Below, piece by piece: positions 1,683 through 5,336 of a stretch of DNA of 24,606 nucleotides (its first letter is position 1; each line of letters opens with the position of its first letter). The position numbers were made by a program, and so were the translations under genes. Source of the stretch: a virus; IMG/VR virus record IMGVR_UViG_3300031841_002509, positions 1-24,606 of that record, one strand, 5' to 3'. A model generated the notes under the pieces. That model was not told the origin of the DNA. It was given only the letters and a program-made list of their open reading frames with translations, and did no database searches.

Positions 1683-2330
1683 TTATTTAGAATTTCTAAG
1701 TTGTAGAATACGCTCTACCATATGGTCGGTACGAGAAAATTCTTTCTTAGTTTTATTGATTGGCTTTGCAGCCGGCTCATTTCTGAACGCTTCAAAAGAC
1801 GCTTGAACTTTTTTCAATTCTTCTTCAAGATCTTTTACTTTTTCAAGGATTGGAACAATAACCTCAACGATTTTGTCAGCAGCTTCTTCTTTGATATCCT
1901 CTTCCATTTCGACTTCTTCTTTTTCGTCTTCAACTTCTTCGAGTTTCTCAATGATTTCTTCTTTGACTTCCTCTTTGATTTCTTCCTCCATGTCCTCTTT
2001 TTCCTTGTCTTCGTGTTCGCCAGCTTCAACTTCGACTTCTTCTTCTACTTCTTCAGCCTCTTCTTTGATTTTGATTTCAGCAATAGATCCGCCTTCAGTT
2101 CTAACCTCGGAACCGTCTTCAAGGACGTGTACACCATCAGGAGCTGGAATGTCCCCTTCTTCAGATACAACGTAAACCATTGCACCTTCTTTAAGTTCGT
2201 CTCCTTCAATGCGAATTTCGGTTCCATCAGCTAACTTAGCGAACTCTTCTTTTACGTCTTCTTTTGACATAAATCCGAATTTCACCATTAAGTTTTTGAT
2301 TTCACCAACTACATTTCTTTCGTTTGACAT
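1683..2330 (-). CDS. Acidic scaffold-like capsid assembly protein
   Basis: Start chosen at ATG 2330 (215 aa, MSNERNVVGEIKNL). An in-frame ATG exists at 2387, but it falls inside the TAnnTTTG promoter box at 2385-2392, so it would not be in the mRNA. Residues about 30-100 form a beta-rich repeat domain (LADGTEIRIEGDELKEGAMVYVV, then PDGVHVLEDGSEVRTEGG). Residues about 103-165 are extremely rich in Glu and Lys, and the C-terminal part is a predicted coiled coil (VEVIVPILEKVKDLEEELKKVQASFEAF) ending in a basic tail. Its position directly upstream of the capsid gene, the acidic coiled coil and the short basic end are what is expected of a head scaffolding protein. Long opposite-strand open frames here are by-products of the GAA/GAG codon run. 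A minor head protein is the alternative. Confidence 0.65.
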   Translation of the reverse strand: MSNERNVVGEIKNLMVKFGFMSKEDVKEEFAKLADGTEIRIEGDELKEGAMVYVVSEEGDIPAPDGVHVLEDGSEVRTEGGSIAEIKIKEEAEEVEEEVEVEAGEHEDKEKEDMEEEIKEEVKEEIIEKLEEVEDEKEEVEMEEDIKEEAADKIVEVIVPILEKVKDLEEELKKVQASFEAFRNEPAAKPINKTKKEFSRTDHMVERILQLRNSK

Positions 2331-2384
2331 AGTGTAAAATTTAACTTTATGATTATCAGGCACGATCAGTCGTACCTTTATATA

Positions 2385-2413
2385 CAAATATAAAATAGGG
2401 TTTTATTTATCAA
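2385..2413 (-). promoter_or_regulatory. Bacteroidetes-type promoter for scaffold/capsid/tube unit
   Basis: On the minus strand TTG (2413-2411), an 18-base spacer and TATATTTG (2392-2385) match the Bacteroidetes consensus TTG-N(17-23)-TAnnTTTG with no mismatch. Transcription should begin near 2377, giving a 5' leader of about 47 bases before ATG 2330. Confidence 0.75.
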
Positions 2414-2438: not shown

Positions 2439-2468
2439 TTGGTATTTCAAAATATTGTTGTATATTTG
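2439..2468 (+). promoter_or_regulatory. Bacteroidetes-type promoter for the plus-strand cassette
   Basis: TTG (2439-2441), a 19-base spacer and TATATTTG (2461-2468) match TTG-N(17-23)-TAnnTTTG exactly. The predicted start near 2475 leaves a leader of about 27 bases of AT-rich sequence before ATG 2502. It is back to back with the minus-strand promoter at 2385-2413, only 25 bases apart, so the two may compete. Confidence 0.8.
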
Positions 2469-2474
2469 TCCTGT
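2458..2474 (+). repeat. 17-bp direct repeat, copy 1 (promoter core)
   Basis: TTGTATATTTGTCCTGT occurs here and again at 3496-3512, with identical sequence and orientation and 1038 bases between equivalent positions. The two copies bracket the two-gene plus-strand cassette and its terminator. Confidence 0.9.
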
Positions 2475-2501
2475 TAAACATTAAATAAAAATTATATTAC
2501 A

Positions 2502-2912
2502 ATGGCAAAAGGTTATAGCAAAGAAGGTTTCGATGTCCTATTTTGGGAGGTCTTCCGAGGAACAGGTCGACAGACAGGTAGAAAGATTAGTAACTCTGTT
2601 GGACGACAATTAGAAAAACGAATTTTAGATGGTAACAGTCCATTTAGAAAATACGTGAATCGTTTTACATTACCTGGCACATTTAATGGTGCAAAGAATA
2701 AGATGTATTCATTAATTGATTCATTCTATAATGAGTACGTATCTACTAAGGCAATGTTTCAAAAAACGATGTATCTTAATGATGATATTGATTTTATTGA
2801 ACGTAAACTCCAAATGGTTGAACGTTTGATTGATACAGAAGTACATGAACGTTCTTATGGTCGTTTAATTCGTGATTGGGAAGATTATAAACAACAATCA
2901 TTGAATTCATAA
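2502..2912 (+). CDS. Unknown 136-aa protein, first gene of plus-strand cassette
   Basis: I do not recognise this protein. It starts at ATG 2502 after an A/T-rich leader with no Shine-Dalgarno sequence, downstream of a perfect Bacteroidetes promoter. The first 50 residues are basic (FRGTGRQTGRKISNSVGRQLEKR), the middle reads as helices with many aromatic residues (YSLIDSFYNEYVSTKAMFQKTMYL), and residues 95-130 form an amphipathic charged helix (DDIDFIERKLQMVERLIDTEVHERSYGRLIRDW). There is no signal peptide or membrane segment, so it should be cytoplasmic, possibly nucleic-acid binding from its basic N-terminus. Its stop overlaps the start of the next gene (TAATG), so the two are translationally coupled. 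It is on the opposite strand to all structural genes, which argues against a virion role. Confidence 0.75.
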   Translation: MAKGYSKEGFDVLFWEVFRGTGRQTGRKISNSVGRQLEKRILDGNSPFRKYVNRFTLPGTFNGAKNKMYSLIDSFYNEYVSTKAMFQKTMYLNDDIDFIERKLQMVERLIDTEVHERSYGRLIRDWEDYKQQSLNS

Positions 2913-3424
2913 TGAATAGACGTGACTTCTTAAAAGTTTCCCTCCTTGGTGGTACTGCATTAGTACTACCATCGGGGGTTATTCATGCAGTTGAGTCATT
3001 ATCACCAAAACAACCTATTGATTATCTTAAAGGTGATGCAATTTATGCGGGTGATAGATATGTTAGATATGTTGGTAAACATAGTGAATTAAATAGACAC
3101 ACTTTATATTCGGGAAGAGGTAAGGAATATACAGAATCAGGATTATTCGATTATAAAGGTATTATATGGGAGACAATGGGTATTGAACATCCATATTGGG
3201 GAATGTCACTATATAATAACGAATATTCTAATTGGAATGTTAGAATTGAAGACAAGACAATTTATCTAAATCATAAATGGATCACATATAGTCCGTATAA
3301 TCCCCCATATTCACTACAAACATTCAAGACAAGAAAAACCCATACTGAACCATTCAAATATATTATGGAAGTTAAAGGTAAGATATCAATATATGATGTT
3401 ATTTTTGAAAATGCAGTGTCATAA
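2912..3424 (+). CDS. Exported protein with twin-arginine (Tat) signal peptide
   Basis: A 170-aa protein coupled to the upstream gene by a TAATG overlap. Its N-terminus MNRRDFLKVSLLGG is a textbook Tat signal: twin arginines in NRRDFLK, then a hydrophobic stretch (about residues 9-22) and a likely cleavage after VIHA at residue 26. The mature domain of about 144 residues is rich in Tyr, Trp and His, has few cysteines or none, and reads as beta strands (AIYAGDRYVRYVGK, KTIYLNHKWITYSPY, FKYIMEVKGKISIYDVIF). Tat signals mark folded, often cofactor-bearing proteins moved across the inner membrane by TatC. No catalytic motif was recognised. In a phage, an exported protein expressed from its own promoter suggests a change to the host envelope, such as superinfection exclusion or surface alteration; that is inference. 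It could also be a host gene captured by the phage. Confidence 0.8.
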   Translation: MNRRDFLKVSLLGGTALVLPSGVIHAVESLSPKQPIDYLKGDAIYAGDRYVRYVGKHSELNRHTLYSGRGKEYTESGLFDYKGIIWETMGIEHPYWGMSLYNNEYSNWNVRIEDKTIYLNHKWITYSPYNPPYSLQTFKTRKTHTEPFKYIMEVKGKISIYDVIFENAVS

Positions 3425-3450
3425 TATAATTTGATGTTTAACAACTGCAT

Positions 3451-3481
3451 AAACCCTCACTTTTTTTAGTGGGGGTTTTTT
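3451..3481 (+). terminator. Intrinsic terminator of the plus-strand cassette
   Basis: AAACCCTCACT (3451-3461) pairs with AGTGGGGGTTT (3468-3478) over 11 bp with one G-U wobble, closes a loop of six Ts and ends in TTTTTT (3476-3481). It lies 27 bases after the stop of the Tat-signal gene and should end the two-gene transcript. Confidence 0.85.
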
Positions 3482-3495
3482 ATTTAGAAAACTTT

Positions 3496-3512
3496 TTGTA
3501 TATTTGTCCTGT
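3496..3512 (+). repeat. 17-bp direct repeat, copy 2 (promoter core)
   Basis: Exact second copy of TTGTATATTTGTCCTGT, first seen at 2458-2474, placed 15 bases after the cassette terminator. Confidence 0.9.
3499..3506 (+). promoter_or_regulatory. Second TATATTTG promoter box, upstream of small-RNA candidate
   Basis: TATATTTG matches the Bacteroidetes -7 box and lies in the exact repeat of the 2461 promoter core. No TTG sits at the usual 17-23 base distance, because that space holds the T-rich tail of the preceding terminator; activity may therefore be weaker or depend on the conserved flanks. The predicted start is near 3512-3514. Confidence 0.5.
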
Positions 3513-3583
3513 GATGCTCTTCATATTGTTACATCACGTTTACGTTAAAACCCTTGGGATCCGAAACCCCCGAGGGTTTTTTT
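3513..3583 (+). ncRNA. Candidate small RNA of about 70 nt
   Basis: Between the second TATATTTG box and a strong terminator there are about 70 bases with no convincing gene. The 5' part can fold as a stem of TGTGATG (3511-3517) with CATCACG (3533-3539; six Watson-Crick pairs plus a U-G pair) around a 15-base AT-rich loop. A short linker follows, then the terminator stem at 3547-3580. An ATG at 3514 opens a frame, but it runs through the terminator and antisense to the protease gene, so it is unlikely to be a protein. If transcribed, the RNA ends about where the minus-strand protease gene ends, so it overlaps that mRNA's 3' end. No known RNA family was recognised; the leftover of a lost cassette is an equal alternative. 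Confidence 0.4.
3547..3583. terminator. Strong bidirectional terminator
   Basis: AAAACCCTTGGG (3547-3558) pairs with the facing 12 bases at 3569-3580 over 12 bp with one G-U wobble and a 10-base loop. The plus strand runs into seven Ts (3577-3583). On the minus strand the stem is followed by TTTTAA, so it can also end the 21-kb late transcript, whose last gene stops at 3582, before transcription reaches the cassette. Confidence 0.8.
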
Positions 3584-5336
3584 ATTTCTTAAGGATTTCC
3601 GCTAACTCTCTTAGGAATTGTAATTCGTTAGCGTTTCTCTCATACTCTTCGAAGAAACCTGATACTGAGAAACCTCTGAGTTCTCCACTCTTAACTTTTT
3701 CCCATATATCTTTGTTGTTGATCTTCATCTTAGTCATCCAAGTTCCTTTTGGTAGATCGTCAAAACCGTACATTCTACTCTTATCGTTTTCAGGATCTTC
3801 TATAATCCAAGACTCCGCAACATATACATCTTTTTCTCCTGGCCCCGAATGCATTATATCGTGTTGAGTATCTCTTGTATAACCTCTCTTCATAAACTTA
3901 TCTGAAATCTGTTTGATAGTTTCTTCTGAGAAGTATACATAGTATTTGTTACCAAAGTAATCTGATCTTACAATCTTTTTGTTTGGAATCATCGCAGGAC
4001 CCACAACAGTCATTTGTTCGTCATCATCTTGGAATGAGAATATAGTCTTAGAGTTTTCTACAGGTACGCAATTAGGGACTGTTCTCCCATCCTTACGTTT
4101 AGTCCCAATTGGTTCGTACCCTGGCCAACATGCCTCTTCTAAATCCATATCTTCTTTGATTTGGTCTAATTTTCTTTGTGCCCATTCGATTCCTTCGTCA
4201 CCTCCCCACGCTAACCACATAAGTCTACCACATCCATCACCTAACTCTCTATCAGAGTGTTGTCTGTGTCTTTCAAATGCTGCCATGCGCGAAATCGTGT
4301 CCTTCGAAATATTTTCACCGTTGGCGAGTTGGTTTGCACGCTTTTTCCCCACGGGGGTTCCACAAGATCCCCAACCATGTTCGTCAGCCCATCTTAGAGC
4401 TATCTTTGCGTTTTCTGATGCCGCTTTTGGATAGTCATTATATGTTTCAAATTCTTCGTATATATCTTCTTTCTTTCTTTTCTTTTTACAGTCGTCACAT
4501 TCAGGTATTTCATCAACATAAGGAGGTAAGCCACTCACATCTATGTCCATATCTTCGGGATGACTTGCGCACGGCATCCACATTGTAACACCGCCTACCA
4601 TGTGTGAGTGGGCACCTTCCTCACACCCAATCAATTTTGAGTAATCTATTGCATCGGCCTCACGTTCGAAAAGAGGGAGAGTGTAATTATCTTTTGAGAA
4701 ACCACCGACTAAAGTACTCGGTAAATCCATCTCTCTTCCATACTCAGTTGGGTCTTCTTTTGATTTATTTACAGACGCTTTGTTGATAATACGACCTTCT
4801 TTCTTATATATTACTTGGTACCAATTGTGACGACAGTTATATGATCCTCTCCAAGTATAGGCATTACTACCCATATCATTATTTTCATTTTCAATGTCTT
4901 CTAATCTGTATACTCTGTTCGCGGCAACCATTTCTCTACAGAATCTACGTGATGTTGGGATTATATTTGGTTCTCCTCTATAGATACCTGCAAGACCATA
5001 TCTATATCTTACTCTTGTATCTTCATTAATTTTTTTGTTTGATTCTTCGTTTGGTTTGGAAATTAACGCTGCAAAGTCATCTTTAGACATTTGTACTTCT
5101 TCTTGTACAACCCATCCATCTTTTTCTAAATCATCCATAGATTCACCCACAGAATAGAGATATTCTAAATACTTGTCCTCTTCTCCTTCAGGAATACAGA
5201 AGTTCTCACCTTCTTTCTTAAATGCAATCCAATCGTACTCGATTGCAGGTTCATCAACAAGTGAGATCTGATCAACTCCTGAGATTAAATCATCATCTTC
5301 TATCTTGAGTTCTATAATACGTTCTTTACCTTCCAT
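3582..5336 (-). CDS. Composite XkdF-type prohead protease with MuF-like insert
   Basis: A 584-aa protein, well above the size of a simple prohead protease. Residues 8-40 (ELKIEDDDLISGVDQISLVDEPA) match the XkdF-like start. Residues 128-172 carry TSRRFCREMVAANRVYR and a WRGSYNCRHNW motif, the SRxFC...CRHxW signature of the MuF/SPP1 gp7 head-morphogenesis C-terminus. Residues 237-262 hold a Cys/His cluster (GCEEGAHSHM, MPCASHPE). Residues 299-393 are a helical domain with GTPVGKKRANQLANGE and GRLMWLAWGGDEGIEWA. Residues 402-425 hold GYEPIGTKRKDGRTVPNCVP. Residues 440-562 are the XkdF protease core (VVGPAMIPNKKIVR, QHDIMH, GELRGFSVSGFF); H492 or H496 and S557 are candidate catalytic residues by analogy with HK97-type proteases. 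It should cut scaffold and capsid during head maturation. Gene spacing to the tape measure is 20 bases. Family assignments are by motif memory. Confidence 0.75.
   Translation of the reverse strand: MEGKERIIELKIEDDDLISGVDQISLVDEPAIEYDWIAFKKEGENFCIPEGEEDKYLEYLYSVGESMDDLEKDGWVVQEEVQMSKDDFAALISKPNEESNKKINEDTRVRYRYGLAGIYRGEPNIIPTSRRFCREMVAANRVYRLEDIENENNDMGSNAYTWRGSYNCRHNWYQVIYKKEGRIINKASVNKSKEDPTEYGREMDLPSTLVGGFSKDNYTLPLFEREADAIDYSKLIGCEEGAHSHMVGGVTMWMPCASHPEDMDIDVSGLPPYVDEIPECDDCKKKRKKEDIYEEFETYNDYPKAASENAKIALRWADEHGWGSCGTPVGKKRANQLANGENISKDTISRMAAFERHRQHSDRELGDGCGRLMWLAWGGDEGIEWAQRKLDQIKEDMDLEEACWPGYEPIGTKRKDGRTVPNCVPVENSKTIFSFQDDDEQMTVVGPAMIPNKKIVRSDYFGNKYYVYFSEETIKQISDKFMKRGYTRDTQHDIMHSGPGEKDVYVAESWIIEDPENDKSRMYGFDDLPKGTWMTKMKINNKDIWEKVKSGELRGFSVSGFFEEYERNANELQFLRELAEILKK

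Follow-up and report, generated by a model that had tools for sequence, protein, structure and literature searches.

A predicted Tat-tagged gene pair at a recurrent insertion site between the protease and scaffold genes of an uncultured phage group

The window, meaning the whole stretch of DNA that we analysed, is an IMG/VR virus contig of 24,606 bases that is probably a fragment. Its minus strand carries predicted structural genes in the order terminase, tail genes, protease, scaffold-position gene and capsid-like gene. The sole convincing plus-strand genes are two neighbours, here termed P1 (positions 2502–2912, 136 amino acids) and P2 (2912–3424, 170 amino acids). They are flanked by a gene for a prohead protease of the Peptidase_S78_2/XkdF type (3582–5336, minus strand; Pfam E = 2.8e-22) and by the scaffold-position gene (1683–2387, minus strand; likely start 2330), beyond which lies the capsid-like gene. 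The scaffold-position gene encodes an acidic, Glu-rich protein and has an orthologue at L004:12024 in the related contig L004; it and the protease gene are the two edges of the insertion hot spot described below. Scanning the window for Rfam families and tRNA genes gave no matches. Our searches found no close cultured relative of this phage group, and its host, judged from promoter type only, is probably a member of the Bacteroidota.

The reading frames of P1 and P2 overlap by one base (TAATG), a configuration of translational coupling. Codon log-odds in frame are 0.23 for P1 and 0.27 for P2, against at most 0.07 in the other five frames and 0.13–0.50 for the flanking genes; both genes look coding. 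The positions of the open reading frames (ORFs) and the codon log-odds thus confirm the two coupled plus-strand genes that the preliminary description had placed between the protease and scaffold genes. P1 is basic (pI 9.4) and soluble by composition, with neither a membrane segment nor a cysteine, and P2 is an orphan protein with a Tat-type signal. The cassette has a G+C content of 0.32–0.33, a value as low as that of some other genes in the window but below the 0.38–0.39 of the genes for protease, scaffold and capsid.

A predicted promoter of the Bacteroidota type precedes the pair (2439–2468, plus strand), with TTGG at 2439 and a −7 box, TATATTTG, at 2461–2468. The box matches TAnnTTTG exactly, with TTG about 20 bp upstream; TAnnTTTG is the flavobacterial sigma A consensus (PMC9723704). 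A second −7 box TATATTTG on the minus strand (2385–2392) serves the scaffold/capsid unit and diverges from the cassette promoter; similar boxes occur in L004 and at empty junctions. Downstream of P2, an intrinsic terminator (3451–3482, plus strand) comprises an 11-bp stem (3451–3478) followed by T residues (−16.9 kcal/mol, z = −3.5), as had been described previously.

The cassette promoter contains the left copy of a 17-bp direct repeat, TTGTATATTTGTCCTGT (2458–2474, plus strand), and an exact right copy lies behind the terminator (3496–3512, plus strand), where it forms a second TATATTTG promoter. This is the longest repeat in the region. Among 300 Markov-shuffled versions of the region, a single one had a repeat of this length, and the window contains two occurrences of its 15-base core where 0.15 would be expected. 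The right copy leads into a candidate short transcript of about 75 nt (3505–3582, plus strand) with two hairpins, the second of which is a terminator; the transcript has no Rfam match. The layout is similar in L004, and the hairpin loops GAYCCGAAACCC are common to the window and L004, which is suggestive for a comparison of two sequences only. The whole promoter–hairpin–terminator unit (3496–3582) is convergent on the protease gene, with similar layouts in L004 and in a further contig, L101.

Of the relatives whose contigs cover the junction, L004 is the closest, its protease being 75% identical to that of the window. In L004 the protease gene is followed by 244 bp without a gene and then by the scaffold-position gene; the cassette is absent. 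The cassette promoter, including the left copy of the repeat, is nevertheless conserved there as part of a divergent promoter that leads just to a short hairpin transcript and a terminator. Joining the flanks of the window at the repeat yields a 156-bp junction that aligns with the L004 junction with a score of 110.9, whereas shuffles scored 72.1 (s.d. 6.4) and none of 500 reached 110.9. Read most simply, these features point to insertion of the cassette through recombination at a promoter sequence, although from this pair alone, with a single close spanning relative, gain in the window is indistinguishable from loss in L004. The upstream promoter is older than the cassette and was not brought by it. 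Of the perfect promoter reported in the preliminary description, the exact match to TAnnTTTG therefore stands, while its status as the cassette's own acquisition does not, given its conservation in a relative that lacks the genes. No relatives of P1 or P2 were found in the other related contigs.

To follow the junction across the wider group, distant relatives were recruited by profile search and clustered at 97% protease identity, giving 78 clusters; the resulting counts come from the best 80 loci per query and are not population frequencies. Among the matches listed, the junction does not exceed 75 bp in 62 of the 78 clusters and measures 220–921 bp in 13. Aligned examples of the short junctions contain the scaffold promoter region and nothing else. 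In the remaining three clusters (L077, L055 and L004) the contig ends or a scaffold match is not detectable; L077, a truncated contig, has a gene of 96 amino acids, and L055 has a terminator module alone. Ten occupants, L077 included, encode genes of at least 70 amino acids, all on the strand of P1–P2, with an additional short ORF on the head-gene strand in L052, L078 and L159. L101 appears to carry hairpin transcripts only.

The protease tree requires 12 changes of occupancy state, and at least 11 of these changes, which count gain and loss together, are forced by well-supported branches. As judged by genome comparison, insertions recur at this junction, a hot spot that has repeatedly gained small genes of unrelated kinds, all with the same orientation. 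The reading of the cassette as a moron, made in the preliminary description, is thus well supported, both by its absence from the nearest spanning relative and by the recurrent filling of the junction in the wider group. Separately, the contigs L028 and L159 are close relatives whose DNA next to the junction is about 91% identical; one site is empty and the other occupied, which marks a recent gain or loss. Short repeats at the insert edges in this pair were too AT-rich for interpretation.

The location of P1–P2 inside a head gene cluster would also fit minor virion proteins. We regard this as very improbable: the pair is on the opposite strand, is missing from relatives that have these head genes and has a low G+C content, and a virion protein would have no need of an export signal. 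Far from being conserved as virion genes in all relatives, the pair is absent from every relative examined.

The cargo of the site is diverse. Two occupants encode HNH endonucleases, distant phages share an occupant pair of 72 and 90 amino acids related at 44% identity, the cargo of L036 and L078 forms a weakly related pair, and several other occupants are orphans. At the junctions of L039 and L159, related Trp-rich ORFs of 23–24 residues (MRQKEKTFGDYWIWSKEFNCWVVR and MKKEKTMGDIWIWDRRIGMWIVK) stand behind a shared promoter. Around the cargo we found common modules. CCCCTCAATTACGAGGGG is common to five clusters with different cargo and GGGTCCC..GGGACCC to six, and all 11 occurrences of these elements fall in the junction, with none elsewhere in about 700 kb. 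Most of the cassettes with either element have an upstream module comprising TGTGGATAA, TTTGG and TATCTTTG or TAATTTTG, to which five cassettes add a GGGGACAG..ATCTGAACA leader. The upstream module is present at the junctions of L036, L039, L042, L059, L061, L067, L070, L077, L078 and L159. Its TGTGGATAA element matches the DnaA-box consensus; any role for DnaA would be putative, and this 9-mer is also found inside genes. Common modules around unrelated genes in distant occupants suggest cassette swapping; the window cassette has neither the shared upstream module nor the shared terminator module. Parts of the upstream module were also seen outside the junction, in L102 near 12683 and in L142 near 13636.

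These observations bear on the possibility that P1–P2 has no effect on the envelope and is cargo of a selfish or neutral kind, or else a local regulator, comparable to the HNH genes at the site. The two HNH occupants, the two junctions that encode just a 23–24-residue convergent ORF, and the fast turnover of cargo are all consistent with such a role. P1 and P2, however, match no endonuclease or DNA-binding family, and a selfish nuclease would not be expected to carry an export signal; we consider this explanation rather doubtful for the present pair.

The export signal of P2 occupies about 26 residues (2912–2989, plus strand; N-terminal residues MNRRDFLKVSLLGGTALVLPSGVIHA) and is recognisable from its composition and from the TAT_signal and TIGR01409 profiles. 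In its n-region, RRDFLK is intact at residues 3–8 and preceded by N, where the (S/T)RRxFLK motif has S or T. An h-region of 18 uncharged residues follows (GRAVY 1.53), and cleavage is likely to occur after IHA. P2 scores 20.1 bits against Pfam TAT_signal (E = 6.1e-4; curated cut-off 22.7) and 15.9 bits against NCBIfam TIGR01409 (E = 0.012; curated cut-off 16.7). By comparison, two cellular proteins that match the P2 N-terminus reach 21.0 and 22.1 bits on Pfam TAT_signal, and behind their Tat-type N-termini lie xylose-isomerase-like and asparaginase domains. Residues 1–34 of P2 are 50% identical to the Tat-type N-terminus of a Bacteroidales protein, and the similarity stops at the signal in the one cellular protein compared directly. 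The Tat-type signal of about 26 residues proposed earlier is supported by motif, layout and profiles, with both profile scores just below the curated cut-offs and the Pfam score in the same range as those of the two cellular proteins.

Many phage envelope proteins use Sec or membrane anchors. P1–P2 could accordingly be a moron whose P2 N-terminus is a Sec signal or an anchor, with RRDFLK incidental. The sub-threshold Pfam and NCBIfam scores favour this interpretation, as does the h-region, whose GRAVY value could serve Sec too. Against it, a complete RRxFLK stands straight before a Gly-containing, moderately hydrophobic stretch, which is the Tat layout, and the proteins that P2 matches in the species-genome collection are of the Tat type and align with it at their N-termini, over the signal region only. 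We therefore view a Sec signal or anchor as somewhat unlikely and export of P2 by the host Tat system as probable.

Related phages yielded no convincing further case of such a signal. When the N-terminal 40 residues of their 2594 ORFs were scanned for the pattern RRxF[LVIM], a regular-expression motif search and no Tat predictor, there were three matches, which we rejected as Tat signals; all are antisense-type ORFs without the Tat layout. Across IMG/VR, the strict pattern MNRRDFLK occurred in two contigs only, L011 and L012. Neither was accepted as a source of P2 relatives, since the motif is internal to an ORF of 931–933 residues (L011:2327–5122 and L012:2475–5276; Tat-like motif QRGMNRRDFLKVTGAGATVILAKLLGF). 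This ORF sits between terminase-like and portal-like genes.

The mature part of P2 (2990–3421, plus strand) comprises 144 amino acids, with 16 tyrosines, 4 tryptophans and no cysteine. Searches with P1 and P2 in PHROGs, Pfam, NCBIfam, PADLOC, PDB sequences, phage records, IMG/VR and 395 Bacteroidota genomes returned only matches to the Tat N-terminus or at chance level, and searches with P2 in plasmids and 84,980 species genomes returned nothing beyond these. In all collections searched, neither P1 nor mature P2 had a relative; the 'MGP protein' of S-SCSM2R, with a search E-value of 0.8 and no RR motif, was discarded as one. Neither protein matched a PADLOC defence model up to an E-value of 5. 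Single-sequence AlphaFold2 predictions, made without relatives, gave mean pLDDT values of 30 and 43 for the two proteins. Among ten other occupant proteins there was no credible PADLOC match, none is a recognised exclusion or defence protein, and the other occupants have no recognised signal. The envelope-modifying or superinfection-exclusion system proposed in the preliminary description found no direct support: P1 and P2 have neither a relative nor a usable model, the ten occupant proteins include no recognised exclusion protein, and no lysogeny gene was identified among the proteins scanned in the fragment.

We lean towards P1–P2 being an accessory moron operon at a recurrent hot spot bounded by the protease gene and the scaffold promoter, with P2 exported through Tat and acting at the envelope. 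The operon would have been acquired at this position in a large uncultured phage group, and host sigma-A RNA polymerase would likely transcribe it from the pre-existing divergent promoter. Such transcription would be independent of the head operon, so expression could occur early or in a lysogen. P2 would likely fold in the cytoplasm before export by the host Tat system, which would set free its 144-residue mature domain in the periplasm. P1, as the coupling of the genes suggests with about even chances, may be a cytoplasmic partner that assists P2 or leaves the cell bound to it; it could also be functionally unrelated to P2. At the envelope, P2 might act, for example, against the entry of competing phages, but superinfection exclusion or a similar action is a tentative guess from its location. 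A still more specific model, in which P1 and P2 fold as a complex in the cytoplasm and are carried by Tat as a Tat-dependent exclusion or envelope system, with the promoter sequences of the hot spot serving as recombination joints for cargo, appears quite improbable.

The time of action could also differ. In a strictly virulent phage, P1 and P2 might be proteins for host takeover or lysis timing in the lytic cycle, acting in the periplasm of infected cells rather than in a lysogen. The selected proteins scanned in the 24.6-kb fragment included no identifiable integrase or repressor, and a host-type promoter would allow early transcription. The contig being a fragment, missing lysogeny genes mean little, and neither P1 nor P2 matched a lysis family; we judge a purely lytic role to be unlikely.

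The favoured moron operon is of a known kind. Its closest parallel in layout, by analogy, is the 'ant moron' of P22-like phages, a site in their late operon next to the tailspike gene, where the cargo includes sieA and antirepressor genes (PMC2629481). Both sites occupy one position in a syntenic morphogenetic cluster, empty in some relatives and filled with different small genes in others, and both combine high turnover with independent expression, here predicted from sequence. In contrast to the P22 site, the present one lies between protease and scaffold genes of an uncultured group, upstream and terminator modules recur in several distant occupants, cargo resembling sieA or antirepressor genes was not recognised, and the window cargo is a Tat-tagged orphan. 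Hotspots of P2-like phages likewise exchange cargo rapidly between conserved neighbours but carry recognisable anti-phage systems (PMC9122126), whereas the ten site proteins, and likewise P1 and P2, are without a credible PADLOC match.

For P2 itself, a comparison is offered by Ltp of Streptococcus thermophilus phages, described as a superinfection-exclusion lipoprotein (PMC3952083). Compared by description, both are phage-encoded, P2 is predicted to be exported, and the same site of action is proposed. Unlike Ltp as described there, P2 has a Tat-type signal and no cysteine, and thus cannot be a lipoprotein. P2 resembles cellular Bacteroidota Tat substrates in its N-terminal signal and differs from them in a mature domain unrelated to any protein found. 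The open-licence papers searched described no Tat-exported phage moron; while the hot spot is of a familiar type, its orphan Tat-tagged cargo is unusual. If P2 is Tat-exported, it would represent an uncommon phage use of this route and would indicate that P2 has to fold, or to bind a partner or cofactor, while still in the cytoplasm, in which case a Tat signal is sensible. More broadly, our analysis delimits a specific and testable site of accessory genes in a large environmental phage group, and new genes for phage–host interaction can be searched for at the protease/scaffold site by position alone.

A minor observation concerns the protease gene at the edge of the site (3582–5336). Residues about 298–396 of its product share 48–58% identity with proteins from certain haloarchaeal tailed viruses and from Salicola phage SCTP-2, which far exceeds that of the protease domain to its phage relatives.
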